Translations under genes and position numbers: made by a program | The notes under the pieces: generated by a model | What the model was told of the DNA's origin: nothing | What the model saw: only the letters and a program-made list of their open reading frames with translations | Databases searched by the model: none | NCBI GenBank assembly: GCA_015056055.1 | Contig: SVHC01000026.1 | Location: forward strand, 1-40,300 | Length of the DNA: 40,300 nucleotides | Direction of reading: 5' to 3' | Origin: Clostridiales bacterium | Lineage (GTDB): Bacteria > Bacillota > Clostridia > Christensenellales > Aristaeellaceae | Part shown: positions 10,896 to 32,300 of the stretch, piece after piece | Numbering within the stretch: the stretch's first letter is position 1 | How the letters are laid out: each line of letters begins with the position of its first letter

Positions 10896-10940
10896 CCTTC
10901 TCCTTGAGGAGAAGGTGTCGGCATTCGCCGACGGATGAGG
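10896..10940 (+). repeat. Bipartite-hairpin intergenic repeat, copy A
   Basis: Hairpin 1 is CCTTCTCC-TTGA-GGAGAAGG-like (10896-10915), then TG, hairpin 2 is GTCGGC-ATTC-GCCGAC (10917-10932), then GGATGAGG. The same plan recurs at 38356 and in part at 40081. The element lies in the leader of the GH95 gene. Confidence 0.5.
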
Positions 10941-10982
10941 TGTTCTATAGCAATGCATTCTGTCAAAATTGGAGGCAATCGC

Positions 10983-13196
10983 ATGGCAAATATTCTGCAT
11001 CTGAAAAACGCGGCTCCCGAATGGGAAAATGCATCCCCCGTCGGCAATGGCTATGCCGGCATGATGGTGTTCGGCGGCGTTGCCGAGGAAAAAATCACCC
11101 TGAATGAGGAAACCATTTGGGCGGGCGGCGAGATGGATACCCGTCTTGACGGCTTTGCCGAAAAGATTGCGCATGTGCGCGATATGCTGGCGAACGGTCT
11201 TGTTCACGAGGTTGACAACTGGATCGAGCAGAATATGGGCGATTGCTATAACCGCATCAAGTCCTATGAATATGCGGGCGAGATCCATGTCGCCATGCAT
11301 GCGGATGATGTATGCGAAAACTACCGCCGCGATATTGATCTGGTGAACGGCGTCTGCACCGTTGCCTACGAAAAAAACGGCGCGGCCTATACGCGCGAAT
11401 ACTTTGCATCCTATCCCGATAAGCTTCTGTGCGCACGCTTCACGGCGGATAAGCCGTTTGACGCGAAGATTTCCTACACCCGCGAAAATGTGGATGCATT
11501 GGATGCTTCCACCGGCGATATCATCGCGAAAGCGCATACTGCATTCGGCGATCATACCTTTATGCTGGAAGTGCGCATTGTGACCGATGGCGAAAAGGTT
11601 GCCTGTGCGGATGGCGTATGCGTGAAGAATGCTTCTTATATCGAATTTTATACGGCTGTTTCCACCTCTTTCCGCAATGGGGAGAACATGGAAAAGGCCC
11701 TTCAGGAAAACATTGCCGCTGCGGCTAAGGGCTGGAATGCGCTGAAAGAAGCGCACATTGCCGACCACAGCGCCGTTATGAGTCGTTCTTCGCTTGATTT
11801 TGGCGAAGCGGAGGCGGCTGTCAGCTCTCTTACCGTCAGCGAGCGGCTGGAACGTCTGAAGAATGATCCCGAAGCGAAGGACAACAATCTGGTTTCGCTC
11901 TACTGGCAGTTCGGCAAGTATCTGCTCGTCGGCTCCAGCCGCCCCGGCACGCTGCCCGCCAACCTGCAGGGCGTTTGGGCGGATGGTCTGGATGTTCCGT
12001 GGAACGGCGACTATCACACCAACATCAATCTGCAGATGAACTACTGGCAGGCAGAGGAAGCCAATATCTCCGAATGCACAAAGGCCCTGTTTGATTATAT
12101 GAACGGCTATCTCCTGCCCGGCGGTCAGAAAATGGCCCGCGAAAACTACAAAACGGGCGGCATGGTCGTGCATCATCTTTCGGATATCTATGGTTTTGCC
12201 GCTGTGGCGGACGGCCCGTGGGGACTGTGGCCGCTGGGCGGCGCATGGCTTGCATATCACATGTGGGAGCATTATCTCTATACCGGGGATAAAGCGTTCC
12301 TGCGCGATACGGCCTATGAATATATCAAAAACTGCGCGCAGTTCGCCATCGAGAATATGTTTGAAGGCAAGGACGGCTATCTGCATACCGGTCCGTCCAC
12401 CTCGCCGGAAAACCGCTATATCGTCGATGTGAACGGCGAAAAGAAAAAGTGCTACATTGCCGTTTCGCCCACGATGGATCTGCAGATCATCGGAGGACTT
12501 CTGGACTTCTACGCCGAGTGCGAGGATATTCTGGCAATCGATCCCGAATACGCAAAGGCAGCCCGTGCAGTCCGCGCCCGCATGGTTCCCGTTCAGATCG
12601 GCAAGGACGGACGCCTGATGGAGTGGACCGAGGAATACGAGGAGTGCGAACCCGGGCACAGGCATATGTCCCACGCTTTCGGTCTGTATCCTGCGGCGCA
12701 GATCACCCGCAAAACGGCGGATTATTTCCGCGCGGTCCGCAAATCGCTGGATACCCGTCTGAGCTACGGCGGCGGTCATACCGGCTGGTCCCGCGGCTGG
12801 CTGATCAATATGTTTGCCCGCCTGCGCGACGGCGAGGCGACCTACGCAAACATCCGCGCCCTGTTCACGAAATCCACCCTGCCCAATCTGCTGGATACGC
12901 ATGCGCCCTTCCAGATTGACGGCAACTTCGGCGGAGCTGCCGGTATCGGCGAAATGCTCATGCAGAGCCATGAGGGCTTCATCTCCCTCCTGCCTGCATT
13001 GCCGTCCGTACTGTCCGAGGGCAGCTTTACCGGCTTTAAGGCCCGCGGCGGCGTAACTGTTTCCTGCGAATGGAAAAATGGCCGCGTGGTGCGCGTGGTG
13101 CTGGAAACGGATAAGCCTGAGACCATTGCAATTGAACTTCCCGGCGAGGAAGTATTTGAAATTGCCGTCGACGGCAAGGCCGAAATCCTGCGCTGA
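10983..13196 (+). CDS. Glycoside hydrolase family 95 (alpha-L-fucosidase / alpha-L-galactosidase)
   Basis: 737 residues, normal for a single-module GH95 enzyme. An N-terminal beta-domain begins [22 protein letters not shown]; the (alpha/alpha)6 barrel carries [27 protein letters not shown] (N347 and N349, the asparagines that assist the attacking water), PSTSPEN (E476, candidate general acid) and [16 protein letters not shown] (D646). These assignments follow the bifidobacterial AfcA model and are inferred by motif. GH95 enzymes remove terminal alpha-1,2-L-fucose from mucin or milk glycans, or L-galactose from plant xyloglucan. No signal peptide, so intracellular. The start at 10983 follows GGAGG; an upstream in-frame ATG at 10935 lies within the repeat-bearing leader and lacks a ribosome binding site. 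Confidence 0.93.
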
Positions 13197-13998: not shown

Positions 13999-14073
<75 letters not shown>

Positions 14074-14466: not shown

Positions 14467-14496
14467 TTGACAGGGGGGGTTAAGGCGTGATATAAT
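14467..14496 (+). promoter_or_regulatory. Strong promoter of the ABC importer operon
   Basis: Perfect hexamers TTGACA (14467-14472) and TATAAT (14491-14496), 18-bp spacer containing a GGGGGGG run. The leader to the start codon is about 107 nt. Confidence 0.85.
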
Positions 14497-14609: not shown

Positions 14610-17129
14610 ATGAATAAAACCCTGAAGTCTGTTCTCTCGGTTGCTCTGTGCCTGATGCTCAGCCTGTCCATGTTCGCAGCTTCTGCCGAACAGGTCACTC
14701 TTAAGCAGGCCGAGTACAACACCACCACCTCCGTCATGCCCAGCAACTGGAACGCGTTCACCTATGATGACAACAATGATAGGCAGATCAAGGACTACCT
14801 TGGTTCCTCGTTCTTTGAGTATGACTACAAGTTCGAAGACGACAAGAAGTTCAACGATGACGGTTCCATCAACAAGGACGGCATCGTTCCGGGCGCTTAC
14901 ACCACCAACTACTCCGCTGCCACCAAGCTGGAGGACGTTACCGCTACCGTTGACGCCAAGTGGGGCTACACCGACGAGCAGAAGGCCGAAGGCGGCTATG
15001 CTTGGAAGATCACCCTGCGCAATGACCTGATGTGGGACGACGGCACCCCCATCACCGCAGCTGATTTCGAATATTCCATGAAGGAACTGCTGGATCCTGC
15101 CTTCATGAACTTCCGTGCCAACATCTACTATGACACCCTGATGATCAAGAACTCCAAGAACTACTTCTTCCAGAATCAGGAAGGTACCTACGAGACTCTG
15201 GGTTCTCAGGGCTATGCCTCCGTTCAGGCAGCTGTTGATGCAGGCGAAACCCTGTACGTCAACATCTGGAACATGTGGGGCACTGCAGGTTACACCGACG
15301 CGGAAGGCAATGAGTGCCCCGAGTACGTAACCATCACTGACGAAACCGTTTACAGCAACGCTGACGGCTCTGACTCCGCTTCCGGTGCATTCCTGTACCA
15401 GAACTACGGTGCATACCTCGAGCCCGGCGCCGGCTACGATGCCACCATCTATGTTGAGAACACCAATCGCGATATCGCTTGGGAAAACGTAGGTCTCTAC
15501 GCCATCCCCGAGGAGAACGCTGTTGTTGTATGCCTGGACAAGGCCTACTCCTTCCTGAAGGAAGACGGCAGCCTGTCCGTTTGGGCTCCCTACTACATCT
15601 CCGATCTGCCCCTGGTTCACAAGGAAAAGTACGAGGCTTCCAAGATCGCTCCCGCCAACGGCGCAACTCTGTGGACCTCTAACTACAACTCCTCTCTCGA
15701 GACCACGGCCAGCTGGGGTCCCTACAAGCTGGCTGAGTTCGAAGCCGGTTCCCACTACAAGCTCGTTAAGAACGAGAACTGGTACGGCTGGAACATGGAT
15801 CAGTACAAGAACCAGTACAACATCACCGCTATCAACTGCCGCAAGGTTGAAGAGTTCGCCACCAAGTGGATGGGCTTCCTGAACGGCACCTACGACGACG
15901 CTTCCCTGCAGACTGAGAACGTTGCCGAGTACCTGGATTCCAAGTACGTTTACTTCACCTCCACCTCCACCGGCACCTTCGGCATGCAGCTGTTCTCTGA
16001 TCTGTCCGTTCTGAAGGAGAGCGAGAACAACAACGGCATTCTGGCTATCCAGGAATTCCGTCATGCATTTAACCTGGGCCTGAACCGCAGCGACATCGTT
16101 GAGAAGATTTGGCCCGGCTCTGCAGTTCCCTGCTTCGGTCTGCTGAACGTTGCTTACTACTACGACATCGAGAACTCTCCTGAGCTGGAAGACGGCGGTC
16201 AGTACCGCAACGCCACCATCGCTAAGGAAGGCATCCTGCGCGCTTACGGCTACGAGCAGGACGAAGACGGCTTCTGGGCCACCGGCGACATGACCGGCAT
16301 GGACACCGAAGAGGCTTACGAGACCCTGACCGGTTACAACCCCGAAGTTGCTAAGGAAAAGATGAAGGAAGCTATCGCTATCCTGCTCGCCAACCCCGAG
16401 GAGTATGGCTACGACGCTTCCAAGAACATCACCCTGATCTACGGTTCTTCTTCCGACACCGATAAGCAGCGCTTCCGCGCAAGCTACCTGCAGGAGATCC
16501 TGGATGGTCTGACCGCAGGCACCGAGCTGGAAGACAAGATCGACGTCGTATTCGATGCTTCCGCCGGCGCTCAGTGGGCAGAGGCCTTCCGTACCGGCGC
16601 AACCCAGATCGGCTTCGGTTATGGCTTCTCCGGTAACGCATTCAACCCCTTCGACATCATTGGCGCATTCGTCAACCCCGATGATGACCTGAACTACCAC
16701 ATGTACTGGGATACCTCCGCTATCGACATGACCATGACCATGCCGGAGGGTGATTACGAAGGCGCTGGTGAAGAAATCACCATGAGCGTTCAGAACTGGT
16801 ACTACTGCCTGAACGGCCTGGCCGAGACTGAGAATCAGGCTAAGACCTACAACTGGGGTGCAGGCTTCGCTCCCGTTGAGACCCGTCTGATGATCCTCTC
16901 CGCTCTGGAAGAGCTGACCATCAAGGAGTCCCGTTCTGTCATGCTGATCGCTGACGGCGGCGGATCCTTCCTGGGCGCCAAGTTCTCCTACTTCTCCGAG
17001 GACGAGCACACCTTCATGGGCTTCGGCGGCCTGCGCTACATGGAAGTCAACTACACCGACGCTGAGTGGGCTGATTACGTTGCTGCCAACAACAACGACC
17101 TGTCTGCTGAGTACAAGAAGTCTGAGTAA
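14610..17129 (+). CDS. ABC importer substrate-binding protein, family 5 (oligopeptide/oligosaccharide), enlarged
   Basis: 839 residues; family-5 binding proteins such as OppA are usually 500-600. The family is recognised from the N-terminal lobe segment WKITLRNDLMWDDGTPITAADFEYSMKELLDP, from RHAFNLGLNRSDIVEKIWPGSAVPCFGLL and from repeated loading-site segments towards the C-terminus. MNKTLK, a hydrophobic core and FAASA-EQ make a signal peptide cut near residue 26. It has no lipobox: the only Cys in the signal (VALC) lacks the small residue before it. A Gram-positive binding protein would normally be lipid-anchored, so how it is held at the membrane is open. The extra length lies mainly between about residues 45 and 260. 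ATG 14610 follows GGAGGG. It delivers peptides or oligosaccharides to the permease encoded next. Confidence 0.88.
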   Translation: MNKTLKSVLSVALCLMLSLSMFAASAEQVTLKQAEYNTTTSVMPSNWNAFTYDDNNDRQIKDYLGSSFFEYDYKFEDDKKFNDDGSINKDGIVPGAYTTNYSAATKLEDVTATVDAKWGYTDEQKAEGGYAWKITLRNDLMWDDGTPITAADFEYSMKELLDPAFMNFRANIYYDTLMIKNSKNYFFQNQEGTYETLGSQGYASVQAAVDAGETLYVNIWNMWGTAGYTDAEGNECPEYVTITDETVYSNADGSDSASGAFLYQNYGAYLEPGAGYDATIYVENTNRDIAWENVGLYAIPEENAVVVCLDKAYSFLKEDGSLSVWAPYYISDLPLVHKEKYEASKIAPANGATLWTSNYNSSLETTASWGPYKLAEFEAGSHYKLVKNENWYGWNMDQYKNQYNITAINCRKVEEFATKWMGFLNGTYDDASLQTENVAEYLDSKYVYFTSTSTGTFGMQLFSDLSVLKESENNNGILAIQEFRHAFNLGLNRSDIVEKIWPGSAVPCFGLLNVAYYYDIENSPELEDGGQYRNATIAKEGILRAYGYEQDEDGFWATGDMTGMDTEEAYETLTGYNPEVAKEKMKEAIAILLANPEEYGYDASKNITLIYGSSSDTDKQRFRASYLQEILDGLTAGTELEDKIDVVFDASAGAQWAEAFRTGATQIGFGYGFSGNAFNPFDIIGAFVNPDDDLNYHMYWDTSAIDMTMTMPEGDYEGAGEEITMSVQNWYYCLNGLAETENQAKTYNWGAGFAPVETRLMILSALEELTIKESRSVMLIADGGGSFLGAKFSYFSEDEHTFMGFGGLRYMEVNYTDAEWADYVAANNNDLSAEYKKSE

Positions 17130-17193
17130 TTTCAGATTCGTCCATTATCTGGGTTATGATTTGTACCCGGGTTATTACTTGGGCTAAATGATC

Positions 17194-17230
17194 GCGAACG
17201 GCGGTGAGCTATTGCGCCACCGCCGTTCGC
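17194..17230 (+). other. Intercistronic 13-bp hairpin after the binding-protein gene
   Basis: GCGAACGGCGGTG (17194-17206) pairs perfectly with CACCGCCGTTCGC (17218-17230), without a T-tract. A stable stem between a binding-protein gene and its permease usually protects the upstream mRNA end and lets the binding protein be made in excess. The rest of 17130-17477 holds a short AGCTGC/GCAGCT stem at 17333-17348 followed by a T-rich stretch, and no gene or clear promoter. Confidence 0.6.
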
Positions 17231-17477
17231 AATATATGCGACTAAAGTTGCAAAACAGGTTCCCGATAAACGGTAGCAGTAATGCACTGGACTGCTACGA
17301 AGATGAATAATCCAAGCGACCGGTTTAATAATAGCTGCGACAGCAGCTGTTTGGATGTTTTTGAGCATCTGGTTGACGGTGGCGCGCAGATTTATTCTTC
17401 ACGCAGAGCCTTGCAAACGGATGCTTTGGGCTCAGACACTGTGAATAGAAAAAAACAAAAACAGAGGAGAAAAACCT

Positions 17478-18485
17478 ATGTATATGTTTAAATATGTGTC
17501 GAAGCGCTTGGGTTTGATGCTGCTCACATTCAGTATCATCTTTACGATGTGCTTTGTACTGATCAAGCTTCTGCCCATTCCCACAACTGCGCTTCCCGGA
17601 CAGGACCCCGAGATCAAGATGAAAACCCTTGAGGGCCGCGGCTGGATCACCAACATTAAAGAGGGTTCTAACGGTGTCTGGACGTATGACAGAGTACCCA
17701 TTATGATCCAGTTTGGTACCTACATCAAAAGAATTGTGACCGAGGGCGACTTCGGTATCGCCACCACCTATGGCGAATATCTCAATATGAACCTCTGGCA
17801 GGTATTCGTGAATCATCTGCCTCCCACGATCCTGATCAACATTTATTCCACCCTGATCGGTGTGCCGATCGGTTTGGGGTTGGGTATCATTGCCGCGTTG
17901 AAGAAGAACAAGTGGCAGGACCAGCTGATCAACATTGTCATTATTCTGCTGATCTCTGTTCCCTCCATTGTTCTGGCGCTGATGATTCAGTATGTCTTCT
18001 GCTTTAAGCTGGGCTGGTTCCCGCTGACCATGTCAGTCAGCAATGAATATTTTACCTGGCCTGTATTCCGTTCCATGCTGCCTGCGGTATTTGCTCTGTG
18101 CCTGGGCTCCATTGCGGGTTATGCCCGTTACACCCGCGCCGAGCTGTCCGAGGTTCTGACCGGCGAATTCATGCTGCTGGCAAGAACCAAGGGCCTTACC
18201 AAAAAGCAGGCCATCTATCGTCATGCAATGCGCAATTCTATGGTTGTAATTTTCCCGTCTATTCTGAGCGAATTTGTCGCGGTTTTGTCCGGTTCGCTGA
18301 TCATTGAAAAAATGTTCGGCGTCAACGGCGTAGGCGGTTTGTATTTGAATTCCATTGTTTTCCAGGATTATGACTTCTTTATGCTGCTGTCCGGCTTCTA
18401 CACCCTGGTCAGCCTGACTGCAGGTATCGTTATCGATATCAGCTACGGTTTCATTGACCCGAGAATCAGAATGGGAGCGAAGTAA
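17478..18485 (+). CDS. ABC importer permease, OppB/DppB type
   Basis: 335 residues, close to the family norm. Six membrane segments are predicted, starting with LMLLTFSIIFTMCFVLI. The DppB landmarks HLPPTILINIYST and the EAA loop ARYTRAELSEVL...ARTKGLTKKQAIYRHAMRNSM (about 215-255) are present; the EAA loop docks on the ATPases. The region between TM1 and TM2 (about 30-100) carries roughly 25 extra residues including PGQDPEIKMKTLEGRGW. AGAGGAG lies 9 bp before the first ATG. It is separated from the OppC-like gene by only 2 bp. Confidence 0.92.
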   Translation: MYMFKYVSKRLGLMLLTFSIIFTMCFVLIKLLPIPTTALPGQDPEIKMKTLEGRGWITNIKEGSNGVWTYDRVPIMIQFGTYIKRIVTEGDFGIATTYGEYLNMNLWQVFVNHLPPTILINIYSTLIGVPIGLGLGIIAALKKNKWQDQLINIVIILLISVPSIVLALMIQYVFCFKLGWFPLTMSVSNEYFTWPVFRSMLPAVFALCLGSIAGYARYTRAELSEVLTGEFMLLARTKGLTKKQAIYRHAMRNSMVVIFPSILSEFVAVLSGSLIIEKMFGVNGVGGLYLNSIVFQDYDFFMLLSGFYTLVSLTAGIVIDISYGFIDPRIRMGAK

Positions 18486-18487
18486 TC

Positions 18488-20068
18488 ATGGACAAGAATT
18501 TGAACAACATTCCCATTGAGAAATTTCGGTTTTCTGCCAGAAATGACCTGTATCATGACACCAAATTCGAAACGAAGCCCATAAGCTATTTCCAGGGCGC
18601 TTTTATGCGCTTCAGCAAGAACAAGGGCGCTGTTGTCGGCGGTGTGGTCATTGCGGTGCTGGTGCTTTTCGCGATTCTGGCTCCCTTTTTCACTCCCTTC
18701 ACGCCTTCGTACTACGACATGGTCTATGCATACGTGTACCCCAAGCTGAACCTGTTCGCAGAAAGCAACATCGATTTCTGGGACGGCTGCAAGGAGAAGA
18801 GCACGAACTATGTCGGCTACCTCAAGGATGTTGCTCTTGCCGCTGAGACCGGAAGAGAGGTCATCAAGAATGGCGAGTATGAGGTCAGCGAGGATGGTTC
18901 GGTCTATACCTACCGCTACGATACCTATTACGGCGTTGGCTTCGGTAAATATAAGACGATCTCTATGGAAGAGTTTAATGACATACAGGAATATCAGAAC
19001 GAGACCGGCAGACAGGTCCTGTATCCTGTTGTAAAGTCGTCTGACAGACCCAGCCTTGAAAAGAACAAGTATGATGCCAACATCTACTACGAGGTAGAAA
19101 ACCGCAAGGCATCCACTCTCCGTCCCAAGCTGGACGAGAACGGCAACATCATCCCCAACTATTGGAAGTATGAAGCCGGCAAAGCCAGCTCCCTGGTTCC
19201 TGAGTACAACTCCCTCAGAATCGAAGGCGAGAACGGCTTCGAGGAAGACGGCAAGCGGTACTACTATGCTTACGGCCGCAAGGTCGACGGCGGTGTTGAG
19301 GTCAGAGCCGAGTACTACGAATACTACATCTATCGGCACAACGAAGTGCTGAAGGACGGTATCACGGAGCCTACCTTCATCTTCGGTACCACCCAGACCG
19401 GTAAGGATATCTTTGCATGCCTGGCTTACGGCGCAAGATTCTCCTTCATCTTCGCAACGCTCGTTGCTATGGCCAACTTTATTTTCGGCGTGATCTGGGG
19501 TTCCATCTCCGGTTACTGCGGCGGCAAGATCGACCTGTTCATGGAGCGATTTGCTGAGATTCTGGGTTCTGTGCCCAGCATGATCGTTATTACCCTGCTG
19601 AAGTACCACATGGGTACCGCCAGCCAGGTGCTGGTCTTGTTTATAGCGTTCTTCGCTACAGGCTGGATCGGCATGGCAGGCAGAACCCGTATGCAGTTCT
19701 ACCGTTTCAAGAATCAGGAATATGTTCTGGCGGCAAGGACTCTGGGCGCCCGTGACTCGAGAATTATGTTCAAGCATATTTTCCCCAACGGTCTGGGCAC
19801 CATCGTTACCAGCGTCGCTCTGGTCATTCCCGCAATGATCTATTCCGAGACCAGCCTTTCCTATCTGGGTATCATCAATCTGGAAGCCGGTAACACCACT
19901 TCTGTCGGTACCCTGATCGCAGCAGGCCAGCAGTCCATCATGGCCAACGCCGGCTATGTGGCTCTGTTCCCCTGCCTGTTCCTGATTCTTTTGATGCTTA
20001 GCTTTAACCTGTTCGGCAACGGATTGCGCGACGCGTTCAATCCTTCTCTGAGAGGAACGGAGGATTAA
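18488..20068 (+). CDS. ABC importer permease, OppC/DppC type, with a large extracytoplasmic insertion
   Basis: 526 residues against about 300 for the family. The cytoplasmic N-terminus (FRFSARND...) and TM1 (about 48-70) are normal. In OppC the motif G(T)D..G.D normally follows TM1 within about 25 residues; here it comes only at FGTTQTGKDIF (299-309). Residues about 75-296 are an insertion rich in Tyr, Lys, Glu and Asp (for example YEVSEDGSVYTYRYD), with no membrane segment, which would lie outside the cell facing the binding protein. The transmembrane core and the EAA loop (401-434: YVLAARTLGARDSRIMFKHIFPN) are intact. The start is 2 bp after the oppB-like stop, the next gene 2 bp after its own. 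Confidence 0.9.
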   Translation: MDKNLNNIPIEKFRFSARNDLYHDTKFETKPISYFQGAFMRFSKNKGAVVGGVVIAVLVLFAILAPFFTPFTPSYYDMVYAYVYPKLNLFAESNIDFWDGCKEKSTNYVGYLKDVALAAETGREVIKNGEYEVSEDGSVYTYRYDTYYGVGFGKYKTISMEEFNDIQEYQNETGRQVLYPVVKSSDRPSLEKNKYDANIYYEVENRKASTLRPKLDENGNIIPNYWKYEAGKASSLVPEYNSLRIEGENGFEEDGKRYYYAYGRKVDGGVEVRAEYYEYYIYRHNEVLKDGITEPTFIFGTTQTGKDIFACLAYGARFSFIFATLVAMANFIFGVIWGSISGYCGGKIDLFMERFAEILGSVPSMIVITLLKYHMGTASQVLVLFIAFFATGWIGMAGRTRMQFYRFKNQEYVLAARTLGARDSRIMFKHIFPNGLGTIVTSVALVIPAMIYSETSLSYLGIINLEAGNTTSVGTLIAAGQQSIMANAGYVALFPCLFLILLMLSFNLFGNGLRDAFNPSLRGTED

Positions 20069-20070
20069 GC

Positions 20071-22302
20071 ATGAATAGAGAAGTTAAACTGTCTGTCAAT
20101 GATCTTAAGATCTCCTTCCGTACAGATGCCGGTAAGGTTCAGGCTGTACGAAACATTTCTTTCGATCTTTATAAGGGCGAAACCCTGGCCATCGTTGGCG
20201 AATCCGGTTCCGGTAAGTCCGTTACCTCCAAGGCCATCATGGGCATCTCTGCCGGCAACTCCATTTATGAGGGCGGCGAGATCCTCTACGACGGAAAGGA
20301 CCTGACCCGTATTCCCGAGGAGGAAATGCACAAGCTGCGCGGTGATAAGATCGCCATGATCTTCCAGGATCCGCTGTCCTCCCTGAACCCCATCATGCGC
20401 ATCGGTAAGCAGATCACCGAGGCAATGCTTCTGAAGAACAAGGCAAACCGCAAGGAAGGCCGCGTTACCTTCAACAAGACCCTGGCAGTGCTGTCCGATA
20501 CGATCAAAAAGGCACTTGCCGAGAAACCGCAAATGGGAGTTTCTGCTGCGGATGTTGACAACTATATCAAGACGTTTGATAATTTCAACATTCAGGCCAT
20601 CAAGCTTGAAAACAGCTACAATGATGCCCGCACCGCTGCGGAAGAAATGATCGCCGTGATCGAGGATCTGCTTTTCATGACCGAAAACAAGCAGAAGGTC
20701 GACGTGGTGGGCTCTTTGGGTCTTGCCAAGAGCAGACTTGGTGAGATCAACGACAAGTACTTCACTTCCGGCTTCGCCGATGTGCTGAAGGCTCACGCGG
20801 CTGCCCTTGACGGCGTGATCCGCGCAGAGCGTTCCAAGGTATCCGTTATTGACTTCGCAAAGAAGATGGTGGGCAGCGGCGCTTCCAAGAACGAGGCGTC
20901 CCCCGAAACGGTAGAAACCCTGAAAGCACTGAAGAAAACCGCTCAGGAAATGCTTGCATTGCCTCAGTACAACTTCTTCCGGATCGGCTACTATGTGTAT
21001 AAGCGTCCCGAAACGGATCTGAGCCGCATGTCTGCTGATGAGGCCAATGAAATGGCCGTAAAGTTCCTGCGAGAGGACTTTATGGACTCCTTCCTGGTGC
21101 TTGTCAAGCTTGCTGTGCAGTATTCCTTTGATAAGACCATCGCAAATAAGAAAGCCGCTGTCGAGACCCTCGAGAATGCTATCGGCTTCTTCAAAGCCGG
21201 TAAGTTTACCTCGCAGGAAGCGGAGAAGATCTGCAAGCGCGTAAACAGCAGCGTATCCGCAGCCATTGATCCCCTTGCCATCGTCAAGGACAATGTGGCT
21301 TATACCTGCGGAAGCTCCCTTGAGCGAGAAGTGGAAAAGTACTTCTTCTATGTGAAGAACAATCCCAAGGAAGAGGAGCGCTTTGCACGTCAGACCGCAC
21401 AGCGAGAGGCTCTGCTTGCAAAGGGTAAGAAAGTGGACTGGAAGATCGTTCCCAAATCTGTGATCGAGCTTGATGTACAGATCGGGATCATCGTTTCCAT
21501 CCTTTCCCGCGTGCTGAACAAATTCAATGCCGATATTGCATACGCCAACAGCTTTGATGTTGATGCGCGCTGCACGGAGATCATTGATTTCCTCAAGGAA
21601 AAGGCATCCCAGGTCGTTTATACCCTGACCAAGCGGATCGCCAAGGAAAAGGCTATCAAGCTCATGGAAGAGGTTGGTATTCCCGAAGCGAGAATGCGTT
21701 ACAGACAGTATCCGTTCGAATTCTCCGGCGGTATGCGTCAGCGCATCGTTATCGCCATCGCCCTTTCCGCCAACCCCGATGTTCTGATCTGTGACGAGCC
21801 GACCACGGCGCTTGACGTGACCATTCAGGCTCAGATTCTGGAGCTGATCAATCGGCTGAAGAAGGAGCGCAACCTTTCCATCATCTTTATCACGCACGAT
21901 CTGGGCGTCGTAGCGAATATGGCGGACAGAATCGCCGTTATGTATGCAGGCAGGATCGTAGAGTACGGTACGGCTGAAGAGGTATTCTACAATCCCAGGC
22001 ACCCCTATACCTGGGCGCTGCTGTCCTCCATGCCGGATCTGGATACCAACGAGAAGCTGGATGCGATCCCGGGCACGCCTCCCAATATGATCTATCCTCC
22101 CGTCGGCGACGCGTTTGCTGAAAGAAACAAGTACGCGATGGAGATCGACTTCGAGATGCAGCCGCCTATGTATGAGGTTTCTCCCACGCATTACGCTGCA
22201 ACCTGGCTGCTCCATCCCAACGCGCCTAAAGTAGAAATGCCGAAGATCATTACCGAACGTATCAGACGAATGCAAGAAAGGGGCGGCAACCATGGCGAAT
22301 AA
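20071..22302 (+). CDS. ABC importer ATPase, OppD/DppD type, with a ~390-residue helical insertion
   Basis: 743 residues; OppD proteins are about 330-350. All nucleotide-binding motifs are intact: Walker A GESGSGKS (43-50), Q-loop IFQDPLSSLNP (97-107), signature FSGGMRQR (551-558), Walker B VLICDEP (571-577), D-loop ALDVTIQ and H-loop THD (608-610). Q-loop and signature are normally about 60 residues apart but here about 450. The insertion (about 130-520) is rich in Lys, Glu and Ala, looks mostly helical and has no membrane segment or motif I recognise. It replaces the helical subdomain tip that contacts the permease EAA loop. The C-terminal module (HYAATWLLHPNAP) resembles the cysteine-free form of lactic acid bacterial OppD. 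GGAGG precedes the start; the end overlaps the next gene by 11 bp. Confidence 0.93.
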   Translation: MNREVKLSVNDLKISFRTDAGKVQAVRNISFDLYKGETLAIVGESGSGKSVTSKAIMGISAGNSIYEGGEILYDGKDLTRIPEEEMHKLRGDKIAMIFQDPLSSLNPIMRIGKQITEAMLLKNKANRKEGRVTFNKTLAVLSDTIKKALAEKPQMGVSAADVDNYIKTFDNFNIQAIKLENSYNDARTAAEEMIAVIEDLLFMTENKQKVDVVGSLGLAKSRLGEINDKYFTSGFADVLKAHAAALDGVIRAERSKVSVIDFAKKMVGSGASKNEASPETVETLKALKKTAQEMLALPQYNFFRIGYYVYKRPETDLSRMSADEANEMAVKFLREDFMDSFLVLVKLAVQYSFDKTIANKKAAVETLENAIGFFKAGKFTSQEAEKICKRVNSSVSAAIDPLAIVKDNVAYTCGSSLEREVEKYFFYVKNNPKEEERFARQTAQREALLAKGKKVDWKIVPKSVIELDVQIGIIVSILSRVLNKFNADIAYANSFDVDARCTEIIDFLKEKASQVVYTLTKRIAKEKAIKLMEEVGIPEARMRYRQYPFEFSGGMRQRIVIAIALSANPDVLICDEPTTALDVTIQAQILELINRLKKERNLSIIFITHDLGVVANMADRIAVMYAGRIVEYGTAEEVFYNPRHPYTWALLSSMPDLDTNEKLDAIPGTPPNMIYPPVGDAFAERNKYAMEIDFEMQPPMYEVSPTHYAATWLLHPNAPKVEMPKIITERIRRMQERGGNHGE

Positions 22303-23548
22303 TGAAGTATTGCTGAAAGTGGACCACCTTTGTCAGTATTTTCGTTTGGGACGTAAGGATCTTAAGGCTGTCGACGATGTGAGCTTTGAGATCAAAAAGG
22401 GCGAGTCCTTTGGCCTGGTCGGCGAATCCGGCTGCGGCAAGACCACGACCGGCCGCGCTATCATCAAGCTGTATAATATTACCTCAGGCAATGTATACTT
22501 CAAGGGTGAAAGAATCGGCGCCGGCATCCGTTCTTATAAGGACGCCATCTCCGCAGCCCGCAACGATGCAGCCGCCAAAATCAAGGCGCTTCGTGCTGAA
22601 AAGGATGCGGACGGCGCAAGAAAAGACCAGATTCGGGAAGAGATCAATAAGATCAACCGGGAACTGGGCGCTGTCGTTGACAGGAACCGTGCGCTGATCA
22701 GAGATGCCAAGTCCAACAGCAAGGATGTTGACAAGAGATATGTCGAATCCCTGCTCACGGCGCTGAAGGCTGAGTATGAGCAGAAGTTTGCGGTTGCTGC
22801 CGGCGATCCCGAAAGACTCGCTTCCCTCAAGAAGGAATACCAGAACCGCTGCCGCGTGGCAAAAAAGAGCAAGCTCATTACCCAGATCCAGATGATCTTC
22901 CAGGATCCCATCGCTTCTCTTGATCCCCGTATGACCGTTCGCGATATCATCTCCGAGGGTCTGGTGATCAAGGGCATTACCGATAAAGAATACATCAACG
23001 AGAAGGTCTACGAGATTCTGGAGATGGTCGGACTCGTGCGCGAGCATGCAGACCGCTATCCCCATGAGTTCTCCGGCGGTCAGCGTCAGCGAATCGGCAT
23101 CGCCCGTGCGGTCATTATGCAGCCTGAGATGATCATTGCCGACGAGCCTGTATCTGCTTTGGACGTGTCCATTCAGGCGCAGGTCATCAATCTGCTGAAT
23201 GATCTTCGCGAGCGTCTGGGACTCACCATTCTGTTCATTGCCCATGACCTGTCGGTCGTAAAGTATTTCTCCGACCGCATCGGCGTTATGTACTTTGGTA
23301 AGATGGTCGAGCTGGCTGATTCTGACGAGATCTTCAAAAATCCGCTTCATCCCTATACGAAATCCCTGCTTTCTGCGATTCCGCTGCCCGATCCCGTATA
23401 CGAAAAGCAGCGCACAAGGATCATTTACAATCCCATTGCGGAACACAATTACGAGGTAGACAAGCCCTCGTTCCGTGAGATTACCCCGGGTCATTTCGTA
23501 TACTGCAACAATGCAGAAGAGGAAAAATACAAGCAGCAGTGCAAGTAA
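22292..23548 (+). CDS. ABC importer ATPase, OppF/DppF type, with a ~115-residue coiled-coil-like insertion
   Basis: 418 residues against about 310-330. Walker A GESGCGKT (44-51), Q-loop [11 protein letters not shown] (202-212), signature SGGQRQR (261-267), Walker B MIIADEP (280-286) and H-loop AHD (317-319) are intact. In OppF the Q-loop normally lies about 50 residues after Walker A; here it is 150 away, because residues about 80-195 are an insertion of Lys/Glu/Ala-rich heptad-like sequence ([30 protein letters not shown]). It differs in place from the insertion in the partner ATPase, which comes after the Q-loop. The C-terminus keeps the OppF-type PGHFVYC. The start overlaps the preceding gene, implying coupled translation and equal amounts. 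Confidence 0.92.
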
Positions 23549-23564
23549 CAGGACGGTTGAAACA

Positions 23565-23978
23565 GTGAAAGAGAAAGCATCCTTAAGAAATTATGGTATT
23601 TGCGTGGGCATTGAGGTGCTGATCGCCTTTCTGGTGATTTGGGCAAAGGGGTTTTTCGCTCATAGCTTAGCGGTAAATATCCAGATCTTATCCGACGCAT
23701 TCTTCGTCGCAGGCATATTTATGACAATGTTTGCGGGTATGATGTATGTGAGCGGAGAAGGTGCTTTCATTGGCATCGGATTTGTCATCAGAAACGTGAT
23801 CCTCGCCTTTATCCCCATGGGCAGGGCAAAACATGAAGTGTATGCTGATTACCGTGCCCGCAAGCTCAGCAATGCCAAAAAGGGCGACAATCATTATGCG
23901 CTTGTGACAGGTCTCATTTTCCTTTTCATTGGAATCGTCTTTACGGTTATCTGGTACGCAGCATTTTACCGCGTATAA
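23565..23978 (+). CDS. DUF3899 family membrane protein
   Basis: 137 residues from GTG 23565, 16 bp after the OppF-like stop. Longer in-frame starts (23475, 23511) would overlap the ATPase gene and add hydrophilic sequence foreign to the family. Four hydrophobic segments: YGICVGIEVLIAFLVIWA, LSDAFFVAGIFMTMFAGM, GAFIGIGFVIRNVI and ALVTGLIFLFIGIVFTVIW. The DUF3899 hallmark LSDAFFVAG followed by MMYVSGEGAF is clear; the loop RAKHEVYADYRARK is cytoplasmic. Function unknown. Its place as last gene of the importer operon may only reflect shared transcription. The ribosome binding site is weak (AGGA). Confidence 0.85.
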   Translation: MKEKASLRNYGICVGIEVLIAFLVIWAKGFFAHSLAVNIQILSDAFFVAGIFMTMFAGMMYVSGEGAFIGIGFVIRNVILAFIPMGRAKHEVYADYRARKLSNAKKGDNHYALVTGLIFLFIGIVFTVIWYAAFYRV

Positions 23979-24007
23979 AATGCGCGCAGGGAATATCAGT
24001 TGAATCG

Positions 24008-24064
24008 CACCCCATTTGCCGGGCAGGTATGGCGAATAACTGCTCTTGCAAATGGGGTGTTTTT
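24008..24064 (+). terminator. Terminator of the ABC importer operon
   Basis: CACCCCATTTGC (24008-24019) pairs with GCAAATGGGGTG (24048-24059), 12 bp with a 28-nt loop, followed by TTTTT. Confidence 0.88.
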
Positions 24065-24132
24065 CGATCTGTTGTGCAAATTTGGACAGAGGGAAACTTC
24101 TCTGCCAATCGGGCGAAAGATGGCACACATTT

Positions 24133-26217: not shown

Positions 26218-29200
26218 ATGCTTCCGGAGAAAAACATTCTGCGTACTATTGAAAAGCAAAAGCGTCTGATCGCCATGATGCGCGAAATGCTTTATACCAA
26301 TGTCGGCAAGGCAGATATTCGCGGCATTTATCAGACCAAGGAACCCCTGCACGAAATCCCCGATGACAGCATGCTTTCTCCGCTGCCGGAAGATAAGGTC
26401 TGGGGCGGCGAAGGCGTTTATGCCTGGTTCAAAGGCAGCTATACCGTGCCGGCAGAGCTTGACGGCAAGATTCTGTATGCTTATCCCAAGACGACCTATT
26501 ACGAGGGCACTCTGTGGGTAAATGAGCGCATTACCGCAAACTTTGCAGCCAAAATTTTTGCCGGACCGCACGGAAACCATTATTCCAAGCGTTTCACCCC
26601 CATGGAGGGTGCAAAGGCCGGTGAAAAGTACGAATTTGCGCTGGAAACCTATGCATGGCATGAGGTTCCCGGTACCCAGCCTTTCCTTTCCGAAAGACTG
26701 CCTACCCATTTTTATAAGGTAGACGATTTTGATATCTGCGTACGCGATGATGAGCTGATGCATTTTGTATACGATTTCAACACGCTCATCCTGCTGCACG
26801 AAAAGCTTCCTGCAGGCAGCTACCACCGCGCTGCACTGGAAAATGCGCTGCATGAAGTGCACCTGAAGCTTCTGTATGATCCCTATGCATGCTCCGCAGA
26901 GGAGTTCCGCGCTGCATGGCAGTCCGCATGGCCGATCATCCGCGAAGAACTTTCCCGCAAGAACGGCACCACCGCTGCTTACTGCGGTCTGACCGGTCAC
27001 AGCCATATGGATACTGCATGGCTCTGGCCGCTTACCGAAACCGAAAAGAAGTGCGCCCGCACCTATGCCCATCAGCTCAGCCTGATGGAGGAATATCCGG
27101 AGTACCGCTTCATCCAGTCCTCCGCATATCACAGCGACGTTATGCGCCGCAAGTACCCCGAGATGTTCGCACGCATGCAGCAGCGCGTGGCCGAGGGCCG
27201 CTATGAGCCCAACGGCGGCGTATGGGTAGAGTGCGACTGCAACCTGACGGGTTCCGAATATCTGCTGCGCCAGTTTGTATGGGGCCAGAGATTCACCCGC
27301 AAGTATTTCAATTACACTTCCGACTGCTTCTGGCTGCCGGATACCTTCGGCTATTCCTATGCCATTCCGCAGATCATGAAGGGCTGCGATGTGGATTACT
27401 TCCTTACCACCAAGACCGGCTGGAACGACACCAACAAGTTCCCCTATACCTCCTTCTGGTGGCAGGGTCTGGATGGCACTCGCGTGCTTTCTCACATCAA
27501 CTGCATCCCCGCAAGTCCGGATCCCAAAGATCTTCTGAACGTGACGAACGATCTGGCAGAGCGCAGGGCTGCCCCCATGCGCCTGGTATCCTTCGGTATC
27601 GGCGACGGCGGCGGCGGTCCGCTGGTTGAAAACATTGAAATGTCTCTGCGCGTCAAGGACCTCGAGGATGTCCCGAGGTGCGAATATACTTCCGTTTCGG
27701 ATTTCATGCACAAGCTGGAGGACACTGTAAACCGTCCCAGCACGTATGCCGATGAAATCTATCTGGAGCTGCATCGCGGTACGCTGACCAACCAGCACGA
27801 AATCAAGCGCGGCAACCGCAAGCTGGAGCAGGCTCTGCACAATCTGGAGCTGGCAACCGTTCGCAAGGCTGTAAAGGAAGGCACCGCTGCATCCGGCGAA
27901 GCCATCGATCCCATCACGAATACGCTGCTTGTGCACCAGTTCCACGATATCCTGCCCGGTACTTCCATCAACTGCGTGCATGAAGAAACCCGCGAGGTCG
28001 TAGGCAAGGCCATCGAGACCACGAATGCCATGACCGCCGAAACCCTCGGAGCAAATGCAAGCGACGCAGCGGCTACTGTTATTAACACCGTATCCTTCGA
28101 CCGTAATGGCACCGTATATATGCCCGCAAAGAAGGCAGGCGTTGCAGGCTGCCTGAGCCAGAAGTTCGTAAACCTCGAAGGCAAGGAGCTGCTTGCAGTA
28201 CACGGATTGAATCTGCCCGCATTCGGCGGTCAGTGTGTTTCCTACACGGACGAGGCATGCACCGCAGCATCCGCATTCACCATGGACGGCAACAAGCTGA
28301 CCACTCCGTTTGCCTCCATCACCTTCGATGACAACGGTGCAATCGCATCCATGATCGACCTGTCCAATGGCCGCGAACTGGTAAACGGTCTGCCGTTCAA
28401 CACGTTCCTCTTCGGCGAGGATGTTCCCACTTCCTGGGACAACTGGGATATCGATGCCGACCTGGAAGAAAAGCTCCTGCCCGCAGGCAAGCTCGTAAGC
28501 CGCGAAGTCGTATCCGACGGCGCAGTCGAACTGCGCATCCGTTCGGTATGGAAGCTTTCCGATAAGCTCACCATCCGTCAGGATATGATCTTTGATGCAT
28601 TCTCTCCGATGATCGCTTTCGATACCGAGATGGACTGGCAGGAAGAACACCGCTTCCTGAAGGCTGCCTTCGATACCGACCTGCACGCCGATTCTATGCG
28701 CAGCGAGATTCAGTTCGGCAGCATCCGCCGTTCCAACCATCGCTCCACCGATAAAGAAAAGGCCCGCTTTGAGGTCTGTAACCACAAGTATTCGGATATG
28801 AGCGAAAATTCCTACGGTATCGCCATTCTGAACGACTGCAAGTACGGTATTTCCTGCGAAAACGGCAGCATGCGTCTGTCCCTGCACAAGGGCGGTATGC
28901 TCCCGGATTCCAAGGGCGACAAGGGTCTGCATCGCTGCAGCTATGCCATCCTGCCGCATGCCGGCGCATTTGCTGCTGAGAACGTTATCCGTCCGGCATA
29001 TGCATTCAACTATGCTCCCGTCGTAGTGGAAGGTGAAGCAGACGCAGCTTCCCTGCTCGCGGTTGATAAGGCAAACATCATCGTTGAAACCGTAAAGCCC
29101 TGCGAGGATGCACAGAATGCCTATATCCTGCGCCTGTACGAGGCAGCCGGCGACTGGACGACCGCTTCCGTATCCATTGCGCATGCTTACGCCGATGCGA

Positions 29201-29298
29201 AGGAATGCAATATGCTCGAAGAAAACGAGAAGGACATCGATCTTGCAAAGATCACCTTCCGTCCCTTCGAAATCAAGACCATCAAGATCGTTTACTAA
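26218..29298 (+). CDS. Alpha-mannosidase, glycoside hydrolase family 38, copy 1
   Basis: 1026 residues, normal for class II bacterial GH38. An N-terminal beta-domain (about 1-250) precedes the catalytic barrel beginning GLTGHSHMDTAWLWPL, where H263 and D265 should bind the active-site zinc; the nucleophile is D375 in FWLPDTFGYS; a further zinc ligand is the His of QFHDILPGTS. The helical motif HRGTLTNQHEIKRGNRKLE and the C-terminal beta-sandwich (MDWQEEHRFLKAAF) complete the family pattern. It removes alpha-linked mannose, for instance from N-glycan fragments. No signal peptide, so cytoplasmic. TTGGAGG lies 9 bp upstream. The promoter is not clear: TATAAA at 26195 has no good -35 box but abuts a TGTGT-TT-ACACA palindrome (26182-26193). 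Confidence 0.95.
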   Translation: MLPEKNILRTIEKQKRLIAMMREMLYTNVGKADIRGIYQTKEPLHEIPDDSMLSPLPEDKVWGGEGVYAWFKGSYTVPAELDGKILYAYPKTTYYEGTLWVNERITANFAAKIFAGPHGNHYSKRFTPMEGAKAGEKYEFALETYAWHEVPGTQPFLSERLPTHFYKVDDFDICVRDDELMHFVYDFNTLILLHEKLPAGSYHRAALENALHEVHLKLLYDPYACSAEEFRAAWQSAWPIIREELSRKNGTTAAYCGLTGHSHMDTAWLWPLTETEKKCARTYAHQLSLMEEYPEYRFIQSSAYHSDVMRRKYPEMFARMQQRVAEGRYEPNGGVWVECDCNLTGSEYLLRQFVWGQRFTRKYFNYTSDCFWLPDTFGYSYAIPQIMKGCDVDYFLTTKTGWNDTNKFPYTSFWWQGLDGTRVLSHINCIPASPDPKDLLNVTNDLAERRAAPMRLVSFGIGDGGGGPLVENIEMSLRVKDLEDVPRCEYTSVSDFMHKLEDTVNRPSTYADEIYLELHRGTLTNQHEIKRGNRKLEQALHNLELATVRKAVKEGTAASGEAIDPITNTLLVHQFHDILPGTSINCVHEETREVVGKAIETTNAMTAETLGANASDAAATVINTVSFDRNGTVYMPAKKAGVAGCLSQKFVNLEGKELLAVHGLNLPAFGGQCVSYTDEACTAASAFTMDGNKLTTPFASITFDDNGAIASMIDLSNGRELVNGLPFNTFLFGEDVPTSWDNWDIDADLEEKLLPAGKLVSREVVSDGAVELRIRSVWKLSDKLTIRQDMIFDAFSPMIAFDTEMDWQEEHRFLKAAFDTDLHADSMRSEIQFGSIRRSNHRSTDKEKARFEVCNHKYSDMSENSYGIAILNDCKYGISCENGSMRLSLHKGGMLPDSKGDKGLHRCSYAILPHAGAFAAENVIRPAYAFNYAPVVVEGEADAASLLAVDKANIIVETVKPCEDAQNAYILRLYEAAGDWTTASVSIAHAYADAKECNMLEENEKDIDLAKITFRPFEIKTIKIVY

Positions 29299-29357: not shown

Positions 29358-32300
29358 ATGCTTCCCGAGAAAAATATTTCCCGTACCATTGAAAAGCAGA
29401 AGCGCCTTGTGAAAATGCTGCGCGAGCGGATTTTTGTTCCGGTGGGGCAGGCAAATCTGCGAGGCGTTTTCCAGACGACAGAGCCGCTTTTTGAAATCCC
29501 TGCTGACAGCATGCTTTCCCCCGTGGCGGATGTTTGGGGTGGAAAGGGCGTTTATGCCTGGTTTAAGGGCGACTATACCGTGCCGGAGGAACTGGCCGGA
29601 AAGCCCCTTTTCATCTATCCGAAAATGGGTTATTACGAGGGGATGCTCTGGGTGAACGGCGCGGTGCACAGCAATTTTGCGGCAAAGTTCATCGAGGGTT
29701 CGCATGGCAACCATTACTGCAACCGCTTTACCGCAGACGCCAAGGCCGGAGAGAAGTTTGAATTTGCGCTTGAAGTCTACGCCAATCACGAAATTCCCGG
29801 CACGGGTCCGTTGGAATTCCCTGTGCAGAACTATGTTTATCCCACGGGAGCATTGGATATCTGCGTGCGTGATGACGAAATTCTGCGCTTTGTGATCGAT
29901 TTCAATCTGATTCTCCAGCTGCGCGATCAACTGCCCGAGGGCAGCTGGCGCCGTGCGTCCATTGAAAATGCGCTGCACGAAATTCATCTGAAGCTGTACT
30001 ATGATCTCGATGCCTGCTCCGAGGCGACGTGGCGCGAGGGAATGCGCACCGCGCAGGAGATTCTGACCGGGCTTCTCGCCTGCAAAAACGGCACCACCAT
30101 GCCGGAAATTTCCCTTATCGGTCACAGCCATATGGATACAATGTGGCTCTGGCCCCTTTCGGAAACGAAGAAGAAGTGTGCGCGAACCTATGCGAATCAG
30201 CTCAATCTGATGGACGAATATCCGGAGTACATGTTCATTCAGTCTTCGGCATATCACGGCGATATTATCCGCCGCCGCTATCCGGAACTGTTCGAGCGCA
30301 TCAAGGCGCGCGTAGCAGAGGGAAGGTATGAGCCCAACGGCGGCGTGTGGGTCGAATGCGACTGCAACCTGACCGGCGCAGAATATATGGTGCGCCAGTT
30401 TGTATGGGGTCAGAAATTCACCCGTAAGCATTTCGGCTATACGTCCGATGCGTTCTGGCTGCCGGATACCTTCGGCTATTCCTATGCCATTCCGCAGATC
30501 ATGAAGGGCTGCGGCGTGAATTACTTCCTTACTACGAAAACGGGCTGGAACGATACCACGAAATTCCCGTACACCTCGTTCCTGTGGCAGGGTCTGGACG
30601 GCACACGCGTGCTTTCGCACATCAATGCCACGCACGGCGGTCCCACTCCGGATGCCTACGACAATATCACAAACCGCTCCTTTGACGAACGCCGTGTTTC
30701 GCCCATGCGCCTGTTCTCCTATGGTCGCGGCGACGGCGGCGGCGGTCCGGAATTTGAGGAACTTGAAAACGCACGCCGCCTTGAGGACCTTGAAGGCATC
30801 GCCAGAAGCCGCTATGAAAGTGTTTCTTCCTTCATGCAGCGTCTGGAAAAGACCATTCAGCATCCCAGCGTGTATGCGGACGAAATCTATCTGGAACTGC
30901 ACCGCGGTACCCTGACTTCCCAGCATGAAATCAAGCGCGGCAACCGCAAGCTGGAACAGGCGCTGCACAATCTGGAGCTTTCCATCGTGAGAAAGGCGGT
31001 AAAGGATGGTGAAGCTGCTTCCGGCGAAAGTGTAGAACCCATGATGAATACGCTGCTCGTGCGCCAGTTCCACGACGTGCTCCCGGGTTCTTCCATCCAT
31101 GCCGTGAATGAGGAAACGCACCGCGAACACAAAGCGGCACTGGAAGCAACAAACGCTCTGATTCAGGAAACTCTGGCGGCGAACGAAGCGGATGGCAAAG
31201 TTACCGTCGTGAATACGCTTTCCTTCCCGCGCGAGGATACCGTATATCTCCCGGCGAAGAAAAACGGCGTTGCGGGATGCCTGTCTCAGCCGTTCACAAG
31301 CCTTGAAGGTGAAAAGCTTTTTGCAGTGCGCGGTCTGAAACTGCCTGCCTTCGGCGGCGAAACCGCCATCTATTCGGATGAAGCGTGCAATGCGGCCTCT
31401 CCTTTCAGCATGGAGGGAAATACCCTTGTTACTCCGTTTGCGCGCATTGCGTTTGATGATAACGGCGCAATTGCGTCCATGATTGATCTTGCAAACGGCC
31501 GTGAACTGGTAAAGGGTCTTGCGTTCAATACGTTCCTTTTCGGCGAGGACGTTCCCAAGGAGTCCGATGCATGGGATATTGATTCCGACCTGGAAGACAA
31601 GCTTCTGCCGGCCGGCGAGCTTGTAAGCCGCGAGGTCGTGTCCAACGGTGCGGTCGAACTGCGTATCCGTCAGGTATGGAAGTTTTCCGATAAGCTCACC
31701 ATCCGCCAGGATATGATTTTCGATGCATTCTCTCCGATGATCGCATTTGATACCGAGATGGACTGGCAGGAGGAACATCGCTTCCTGAAGGCTGCCTTCG
31801 ATACCACGCTGCATACGGACAATATGCGCAGCGAGATTCAGTTTGGCAACATCCGCCGCGCAAATCATCGCTCGGACGATGCTCTGAAGGCCAAATTTGA
31901 AGTCTGCCAGCACAAGTATTCCGATATGAGTGAGCACAGCTACGGTATAGCGATTCTTTCGGACTGCAAGTACGGCATTTCCTGCCTGGGCGGCAGAATG
32001 AGCCTGTCTCTGCACAAAGGCGGTATGCGTCCCGATTCCGTGGGTGATAAGGGTCTGCATCGCTGCCGCTATGCCATCCTGCCGCATGGCAGCGCATTCT
32101 CGGCGGAGAGCGTTATCCGTCCGGCATATGCATTCAGCTATGAGCCGGTGATCGCCTTCGGCGAGGCGGATGCAGCATCGCTTCTTACGGTTGACAAGGC
32201 AAATATCATCGTCGAAACCGTCAAGCCCTGCGAGGATACGCAGAATGCCTATATCCTGCGCATCTATGAAGCTGCCGGCGACTGGACGAAGGCTTCCGTT

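Follow-up and report, generated by a model that had tools for sequence, protein, structure and literature searches.

We present an enlarged importer of the Opp type, a type I ATP-binding cassette (ABC) system, encoded in a 40,300-nucleotide stretch of DNA (hereafter the window) from a Clostridiales bacterium of the Aristaeellaceae (Clostridia; Christensenellales; assembly GCA_015056055.1, contig SVHC01000026.1, positions 1 to 40,300 of the forward strand). Its genes comprise five classical open reading frames (ORFs) on the plus strand at 14610-23548, with the translated frames lying where an initial annotation of the sequence had placed them. That annotation ended the system with the fifth gene, and here its bounds need to be extended, as the operon continues into a sixth gene at 23565-23978, which codes for a membrane protein of the DUF3899 family. 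Four of the five classical products are oversized, and the enlarged importer is a conserved subfamily of gut Clostridia. The features of the locus are:

14467..14496, plus strand: promoter-like site with a 12/12 consensus and an extended -10, 114 bases 5' of the first gene (a consensus match only)
14610..17129, plus strand: substrate-binding protein of family 5, 839 amino acids (aa), or 844 aa if an upstream TTG start is used instead of the ATG (ORF, Pfam)
15177..15461, plus strand: largest extra block of the binding protein, residues 190-284 (alignment with six normal-sized related proteins and Escherichia coli OppA)
17194..17230, plus strand: stable hairpin between the binding protein and OppB genes, lacking a T tail (fold of 17180-17245 at -31.2 kcal/mol, z -4.2)
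17478..18485, plus strand: OppB permease of normal size, 335 aa (ORF, Pfam, NCBIfam)
18488..20068, plus strand: OppC permease, 526 aa (ORF, Pfam, structure model)
18719..19378, plus strand: predicted extra extracellular domain of OppC between transmembrane segments 1 and 2 (TM1-TM2), residues 78-297 (profiles, model, hydropathy)
20071..22302, plus strand: OppD ATPase, 743 aa (ORF, Pfam, motifs, model)
20440..21636, plus strand: OppD insert (about 395 residues) in the helical subdomain, following the Q-loop (alignment; predicted long-helix bundle)
22292..23548, plus strand: OppF ATPase, 418 aa (ORF, Pfam, motifs)
22544..22861, plus strand: insert separating Walker A from the Q-loop in OppF, about 108 residues (motif spacing; approximate borders)
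23565..23978, plus strand: DUF3899 (PF13038) membrane protein, 137 aa from a GTG start, four predicted transmembrane segments (Pfam, locus survey, hydropathy)
24007..24065, plus strand: intrinsic terminator after the DUF3899 gene, stem 24007-24060 followed by a U run (z -5.7), outside the terminator pattern list by virtue of a loop longer than the pattern limit

Pfam matches, each above its cut-off, identify SBP_bac_5 in the binding protein, BPD_transp_1 in OppB, BPD_transp_1 with OppC_N in OppC, and ABC_tran with oligo_HPY in both ATPases; this is the composition of the Opp/Dpp family, namely a binding protein, two permeases and two oligo_HPY ATPases. ORF lengths and motif spacing bear out the original observation that all but the normal-sized OppB exceed their families in size, and the ATPase motifs said to be intact could all be located, with Walker A, Q-loop, signature, Walker B and H-loop at residues 43, 99, 552, 572 and 608 of OppD and 44, 204, 261, 281 and 317 of OppF. 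The coupling (EAA) loops of the permeases are likewise intact. In OppD, 453 residues separate the Q-loop from the signature (normally 57-60), and in OppF, 152 separate Walker A from the Q-loop (normally 41-44). In OppC the distance from the start to the FGT motif is 299 residues in L040, a locus with an equally long OppC (L and G numbers denote loci and genomes here), against 84 in E. coli. The excess length of the binding protein is distributed in the alignment over several separate blocks. Hydropathy places the OppC insert outside, between TM1 and TM2; by the same measure OppF has no membrane segment and OppD a single hydrophobic stretch (464-482). Conservation and the ratio of nonsynonymous to synonymous substitution rates (dN/dS) rule out chance or mistranslated frames, and the recurrence of the same organization in many genomes rules out an assembly artefact.

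The OppC insert had no match in a Pfam search, and the OppD and OppF inserts retrieved nothing over cut-off. The structure model of OppC, with a mean predicted local distance difference test score (pLDDT) of 79, predicts that its insert is an ordered extracellular domain, with block means of 79-91 that dip to 63-73 at residues 191-210 and to 69 at 241-250. The OppD insert is predicted to form a bundle of long helices of up to 55 residues, with block means mostly of 80-96 and dips near 251-280, 451-460 and 511-520; the model as a whole has a mean of 77 and a poorly modelled region at 652-721. In an alignment of 37 rows the OppD insert retains invariant K283 and N308 and nearly invariant Y184, F218, D284 and Y301 (numbering of the OppD-insert profile A2). 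Structure searches with the OppC and OppD models recovered solved Opp/Dpp importers as the top matches, on their cores; among the matches listed there is no structural relative of either insert, and core domains fill these lists. The same genome has a second, normal-sized Opp, the OppD of which is 63% identical over window residues 521-728; its OppC (L009, 11454-12797) is 447 aa long, with a different loop domain that gives a weak SH3-like match under cut-off.

A further elaboration was observed in OppF proteins of 802-902 aa from ten loci of the host's bacterial family (L055, L057, L058, L060, L062, L063, L064, L067, L071 and L072), which display a TM-ectodomain-TM fusion, that is, a transmembrane segment, about 320-400 residues and another transmembrane segment, placed N-terminal to the ATPase. 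Two more long OppF proteins found later (L185 and L193, from G005, where the gene is cut, and G007) belong to the same family. We infer from hydropathy that the N-terminal module is an ectodomain facing outside. No stand-alone gene for it was found in the loci searched, where all 10 matches are fusions, ruling out a separate gene within them.

The OppD insert was detected in 41 of 151 related genomes, in 7 of 391 genomes in a sample of the class, and in 1 of 398, the host genome itself, in a sample of the phylum. A ten-row insert profile found 116 relatives among named genomes, the best 80 of which were kept; titles among these best 80 name uncultured Clostridia, Oscillospiraceae, Lachnospiraceae and a few others, with one Gastranaerophilales label (L140), and many mention a herbivore gut sample. 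When searched for independently, the OppC insert was also found in 41 of the 151 genomes, 40 of them in common with the OppD insert, and the two mismatches (G042 and G005), with one insert each alone, both lie at contig ends. The enlargements thus co-occur, as had been anticipated, in partial support of the earlier suggestion that the extra parts evolved together into a further layer of the transporter; contact between the inserts would be conjectural. From 127 systems, seven were dropped owing to an unmeasurable OppF motif or a split OppF (L046, L053, L125, L139 and L164, with enlarged OppD, and the normal L190 and L198), and 109 of the 120 measured (104 distinct) have an enlarged OppD loop. 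An OppC of at least 480 aa accompanies it in 108 of the 109, the other being L047 (437 aa), apparently split by a frame break; an enlarged OppF loop is likewise present in 108 (with L064 read correctly) and lacking only in L074. Where the OppD loop is normal (11 systems), OppC measures 307-447 aa and the OppF loop 43-44 residues.

In an OppB tree of 58 rows, which holds 42 of the 112 systems with an OppD of at least 560 aa as representatives, the enlarged systems form one clade (99/99) along with a second enlarged type. Their sister clade consists of six normal-sized DUF3899-linked systems (100/93), and the two are joined at 100/96; L197 in this tree is normal-sized by its loops and long only through start choice. 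Since the enlarged systems form a single OppB clade, the co-occurrence may go back to one event preserved by descent. The second type (L186, L191 and L192) has an OppC of 624-629 aa, an OppD of 498-506 aa and an OppF enlarged at the same sites, with DUF3899 adjoining. Its inserts are charged and helical-looking, and the profiles did not recognize them (A2 gave no OppD row at E <=10, and the best OppC row given by the OppC-insert profile A6 had E 0.77); no binding protein was recognized in the three loci. These inserts may reflect replacement, divergence or a second origin.

The sixth gene starts 16 bases after OppF and is followed by a strong terminator; its product matches DUF3899 with 38.8 bits against a cut-off of 23.4. 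Among 122 loci with an OppD longer than 560 aa, a set that counts five contigs twice, 116 carry a DUF3899 gene on the same strand within 400 bases downstream of OppF, or 116 of the 117 that can be judged; in the other five (L062, L069, L077, L116 and L149) the contig is cut or OppF was missed by the script. Genome by genome, DUF3899 was matched in 49 of the 151 relatives, including 40 of the 41 with the OppD insert; in the exception, G034, the stretch read (L069) has the operon cut close after OppF. The DUF3899 gene is a conserved sixth member of the operon. We also observed Opp genes beside DUF3899 in seven genomes lacking an OppD-insert match (G005, G010, G047, G066, G071, G073 and G083); their DUF3899 matches are free of stop codons, the contig is cut in G005, and DUF3899 is on the opposite strand in G066. 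Weaker matches in G097 and G124 contain stop codons. In the class sample DUF3899 exceeded its cut-off in 9 of 381 genomes, comprising seven with the OppD insert and two others, G515, where it lies beside OppB and OppC, and G278, where the match is borderline and the short stretch read contains no Opp gene. It was further seen beside or near normal-sized Opp genes, sometimes on the opposite strand, in L187, L188, L189, L194, L195, L199, L201, L202 and L203. DUF3899 looks to be Opp-associated beyond the enlarged type. Literature searches found no paper on it.

Against five close relatives, some with high dS, the inserts show dN/dS values of 0.08-0.30, indicative of purifying selection; given these low ratios, the inserts are translated and selected. 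For the ATPase inserts the ratio exceeds that of their cores about 2.4- to 8-fold, and for the OppC insert it is 0.9 to 2.5 times the core value. We also compared tree distances between parts, with the core subunits as background (84 systems, 12 of 96 omitted; 300 permutations). The binding protein correlates with the OppC insert at 0.30 and with OppB at 0.44 (0/300 permutations as high in each case), and with the OppD insert at 0.11 (22/300). Between inserts the values are 0.11 for OppD and OppF (17/300), 0.05 for OppC and OppD (53/300) and 0.00 for OppC and OppF (141/300). As controls, OppB against the OppC core gave 0.89, the OppD against the OppF core 0.77, and the OppD and OppF inserts against their own cores 0.41 and 0.43. 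The correlations are hints only, because the permutation ignores phylogeny and one further control fails; as hints, they would favour the outer pair of binding protein and OppC insert, with a mixed picture across the membrane.

With the solved Opp/Dpp importers of E. coli and Mycobacterium tuberculosis (8z21, 8z1v-z, 8j5q-t, 8wd9-b) the window system has in common the core folds of OppC and OppD, the motifs and a normal-sized B permease; it differs from them in about 215 extra residues in OppC, 395 in OppD and 108 in OppF, and in the DUF3899 gene. The account in PMC12136057 describes a scoop motif in DppB and a [4Fe-4S] cluster bound by DppD via C-terminal cysteines. Cysteines occur in the window OppD only at 388, 413, 501 and 574, with none in the C-terminal part to which that account assigns the cluster, and [4Fe-4S] ligands of the DppD/DppF type are lacking from it. 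The known precedent for oversized Opp ATPases is found in the Mollicutes (NF043078/NF043079, MMSYN1_0167/0168), where both ATPases are oversized as in the window; an OppF of 797 aa is given for Mycoplasma synoviae in PMC7456371. Hence, the earlier remark that no importer of this design had been described is too strong for the ATPases, though the OppD insert lies elsewhere. The Mollicute OppF insert is at the same site as that of the window, before the Q-loop. In contrast, the Mollicute OppD insert precedes the Q-loop (about model positions 76-292) and that of the window follows it: model positions 2-71 and 298-346 align to window residues 7-76 and 84-132, which are separated by hardly any sequence, and the window insert follows about residue 124. 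Judged by this site, the window importer is not of the Mollicute type. The Mollicute OppC model has 307 positions against the 526 aa of the window OppC. The Mollicute models are the best NCBIfam matches of the window OppD and OppF, below their curated cut-offs; best-model scores against the cut-offs (Opp3/Opp4/MMSYN1) are 210/480 bits for OppB, 255/450 for OppC, 475/740 for OppD and 405/800 for OppF, none of which is reached. Homology of the inserts themselves is not supported, the piece with the OppF insert scoring 34.6 bits against 35.3 for the Q-loop piece alone in the normal paralogue; the Mollicute OppD model gains about 11 bits through the window OppF insert, which is weak for helical sequence. 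A closer comparison is offered by normal-sized DUF3899-linked Opp systems of the same bacterial family, loci that were fetched for their DUF3899 link. They have an OppC of 383-388 aa, OppD of 348-362 aa, OppF of 309-319 aa and binding protein of 566-592 aa, no ATPase inserts, and a short OppC loop, similar by eye at its start and end, which the OppC-insert profile does not match significantly (best E 0.037). Literature searches, covering titles and the starts of abstracts, found no description of this enlarged Opp subfamily.

Taken together, we consider it reasonably probable that the locus belongs to a six-gene Opp-type importer subfamily of gut Clostridia, the inserts of which are kept as a set and would have docking and accessory roles. 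Family-5 binding proteins bind ligands other than peptides too, and that of the window would bring a peptide or a similar oligomer. We propose that capture by the binding protein is followed by its docking on OppB and the OppC domain, and then by ATP-driven transfer powered by OppD and OppF. The OppC domain might act as a platform on which the enlarged binding protein docks or is sealed, over and above the scoop-type contact made by the B permease of this class. The helical arm of OppD and the OppF insert would be accessory parts, probably steadying or regulating the ATPase pair, and DUF3899 an accessory or assembly subunit, probably aiding assembly. Most simply, a normal-sized Opp would have been enlarged in an ancestor of the clade and the changes then kept as a set. 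Several points weigh against this proposal. Kinship accounts for much of the co-occurrence, and inheritance of one operon from one ancestor would explain it without any contact between inserts; in the OppB tree, 14 of 55 inner branches are open, and two of the rows, L061 and L178, are long. That L074 lacks the OppF insert, and that several other systems have only a short one, shows that it is not strictly required. DUF3899 is missing from one judgeable locus, L061, and is not specific to the enlarged form, because it also adjoins normal-sized Opp operons. The binding protein correlates at 0.21 (1/300) with the OppF insert on the opposite side of the membrane, and the failing control, the OppC insert against its own core (-0.07), marks the correlation test as noisy. 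The docking role, finally, is something that we infer.

The contribution of descent raises the possibility, which we regard as doubtful, of neutral or lineage-wide domain growth, with inserts tolerated without joint function and kept together merely as one inherited operon. This would be consistent with the confinement of the sampled enlarged systems to one OppB clade, with OppF loops ranging from 44 residues (no insert) to 188, with the elevated dN/dS of the ATPase inserts and with the mixed correlations across the membrane. Nevertheless, the inserts are under purifying selection, that of OppC being nearly as constrained as its core; none of the 109 systems with the OppD insert has a normal-sized OppC, L047 looking split; and the L186 type has been enlarged at the same sites with different inserts. 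We think it unlikely that the cytosolic inserts instead have a sensory or regulatory function, comparable to that in trans-inhibited importers, and switch the ATPases off on binding substrate, nucleotide or a partner protein. The helical subdomain and Q-loop of ABC importer ATPases couple to the permease, and the OppD insert, large and ordered in the model, lies in this subdomain adjoining the Q-loop. Yet, among Pfam families no ligand-binding one was recovered for the cytosolic inserts (best PARG_cat_C, E 0.09, below cut-off), and the few invariant positions of the OppD insert outline no obvious pocket.

A very improbable alternative holds that the binding protein of the host's family lost its lipid anchor and that the OppC domain, joined in some genomes by the OppF ectodomain, retains it at the cell. 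By eye, the window protein has a signal peptide resembling those of signal peptidase I (SPase I), without a lipobox. By a simple pattern, a lipobox is absent in 19 of 23 binding proteins of the host's family, the four positives resembling SPase I sites on inspection, and present in 11 of 11 from other families; the OppF fusions, the two later ones included, are also all from the host's family. Against this, the OppC domain is equally present beside lipoprotein-type binding proteins (59 of 65 named loci, by pattern), and the binding protein of the same genome's normal-sized Opp carries a similar signal. The host genome retains Lgt and LspA, which rules out loss of the lipoprotein machinery as the cause of the missing lipobox there.

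Returning to the six-gene subfamily, a bolder version of it, tentative and rather unlikely, would see in it a distinct architecture: an outer collar of binding protein and OppC domain, an inner assembly of helical arms on the ATPases and an integral DUF3899 subunit, with a membrane-anchored OppF and its extracellular domain in one branch, the two layers forming one gated path for long or bulky substrates. If true, this would give DUF3899 its first function. Opp importers set which peptides and signals a bacterium takes in, and their part sizes vary little in solved examples; a clade with inserts on both membrane sides, inherited as a set, is a natural test of the role of extra domains in importers. 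Likewise, the link between DUF3899 and Opp, in enlarged and normal systems, means that a domain of unknown function can now be tested as a transporter subunit.

The surroundings proved unusable for predicting the substrate, as the flanking GH95, HAD and cation-efflux genes match 0, 2 and 1 times, respectively, in the loci read, whose flanks reach about 10 kb at most. In the window, Rfam yields a single match over cut-off, a tRNA at 13999-14070, which rules out RNA switches, and promoter-like sites over the whole region number 10 against 8.1 in shuffles, that is, no excess. Elsewhere in the window we observed a GH95 enzyme (10935-13196), two tandem DUF2961 proteins of equal length (4749-5849 and 5876-6976) and a 938-aa protein on the minus strand (35449-38265), whose C39-peptidase-like and leucine-rich-repeat matches are weak and fall below cut-off. 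Two GH38 alpha-mannosidases are encoded in tandem at 26218-29298 and 29358-32426.

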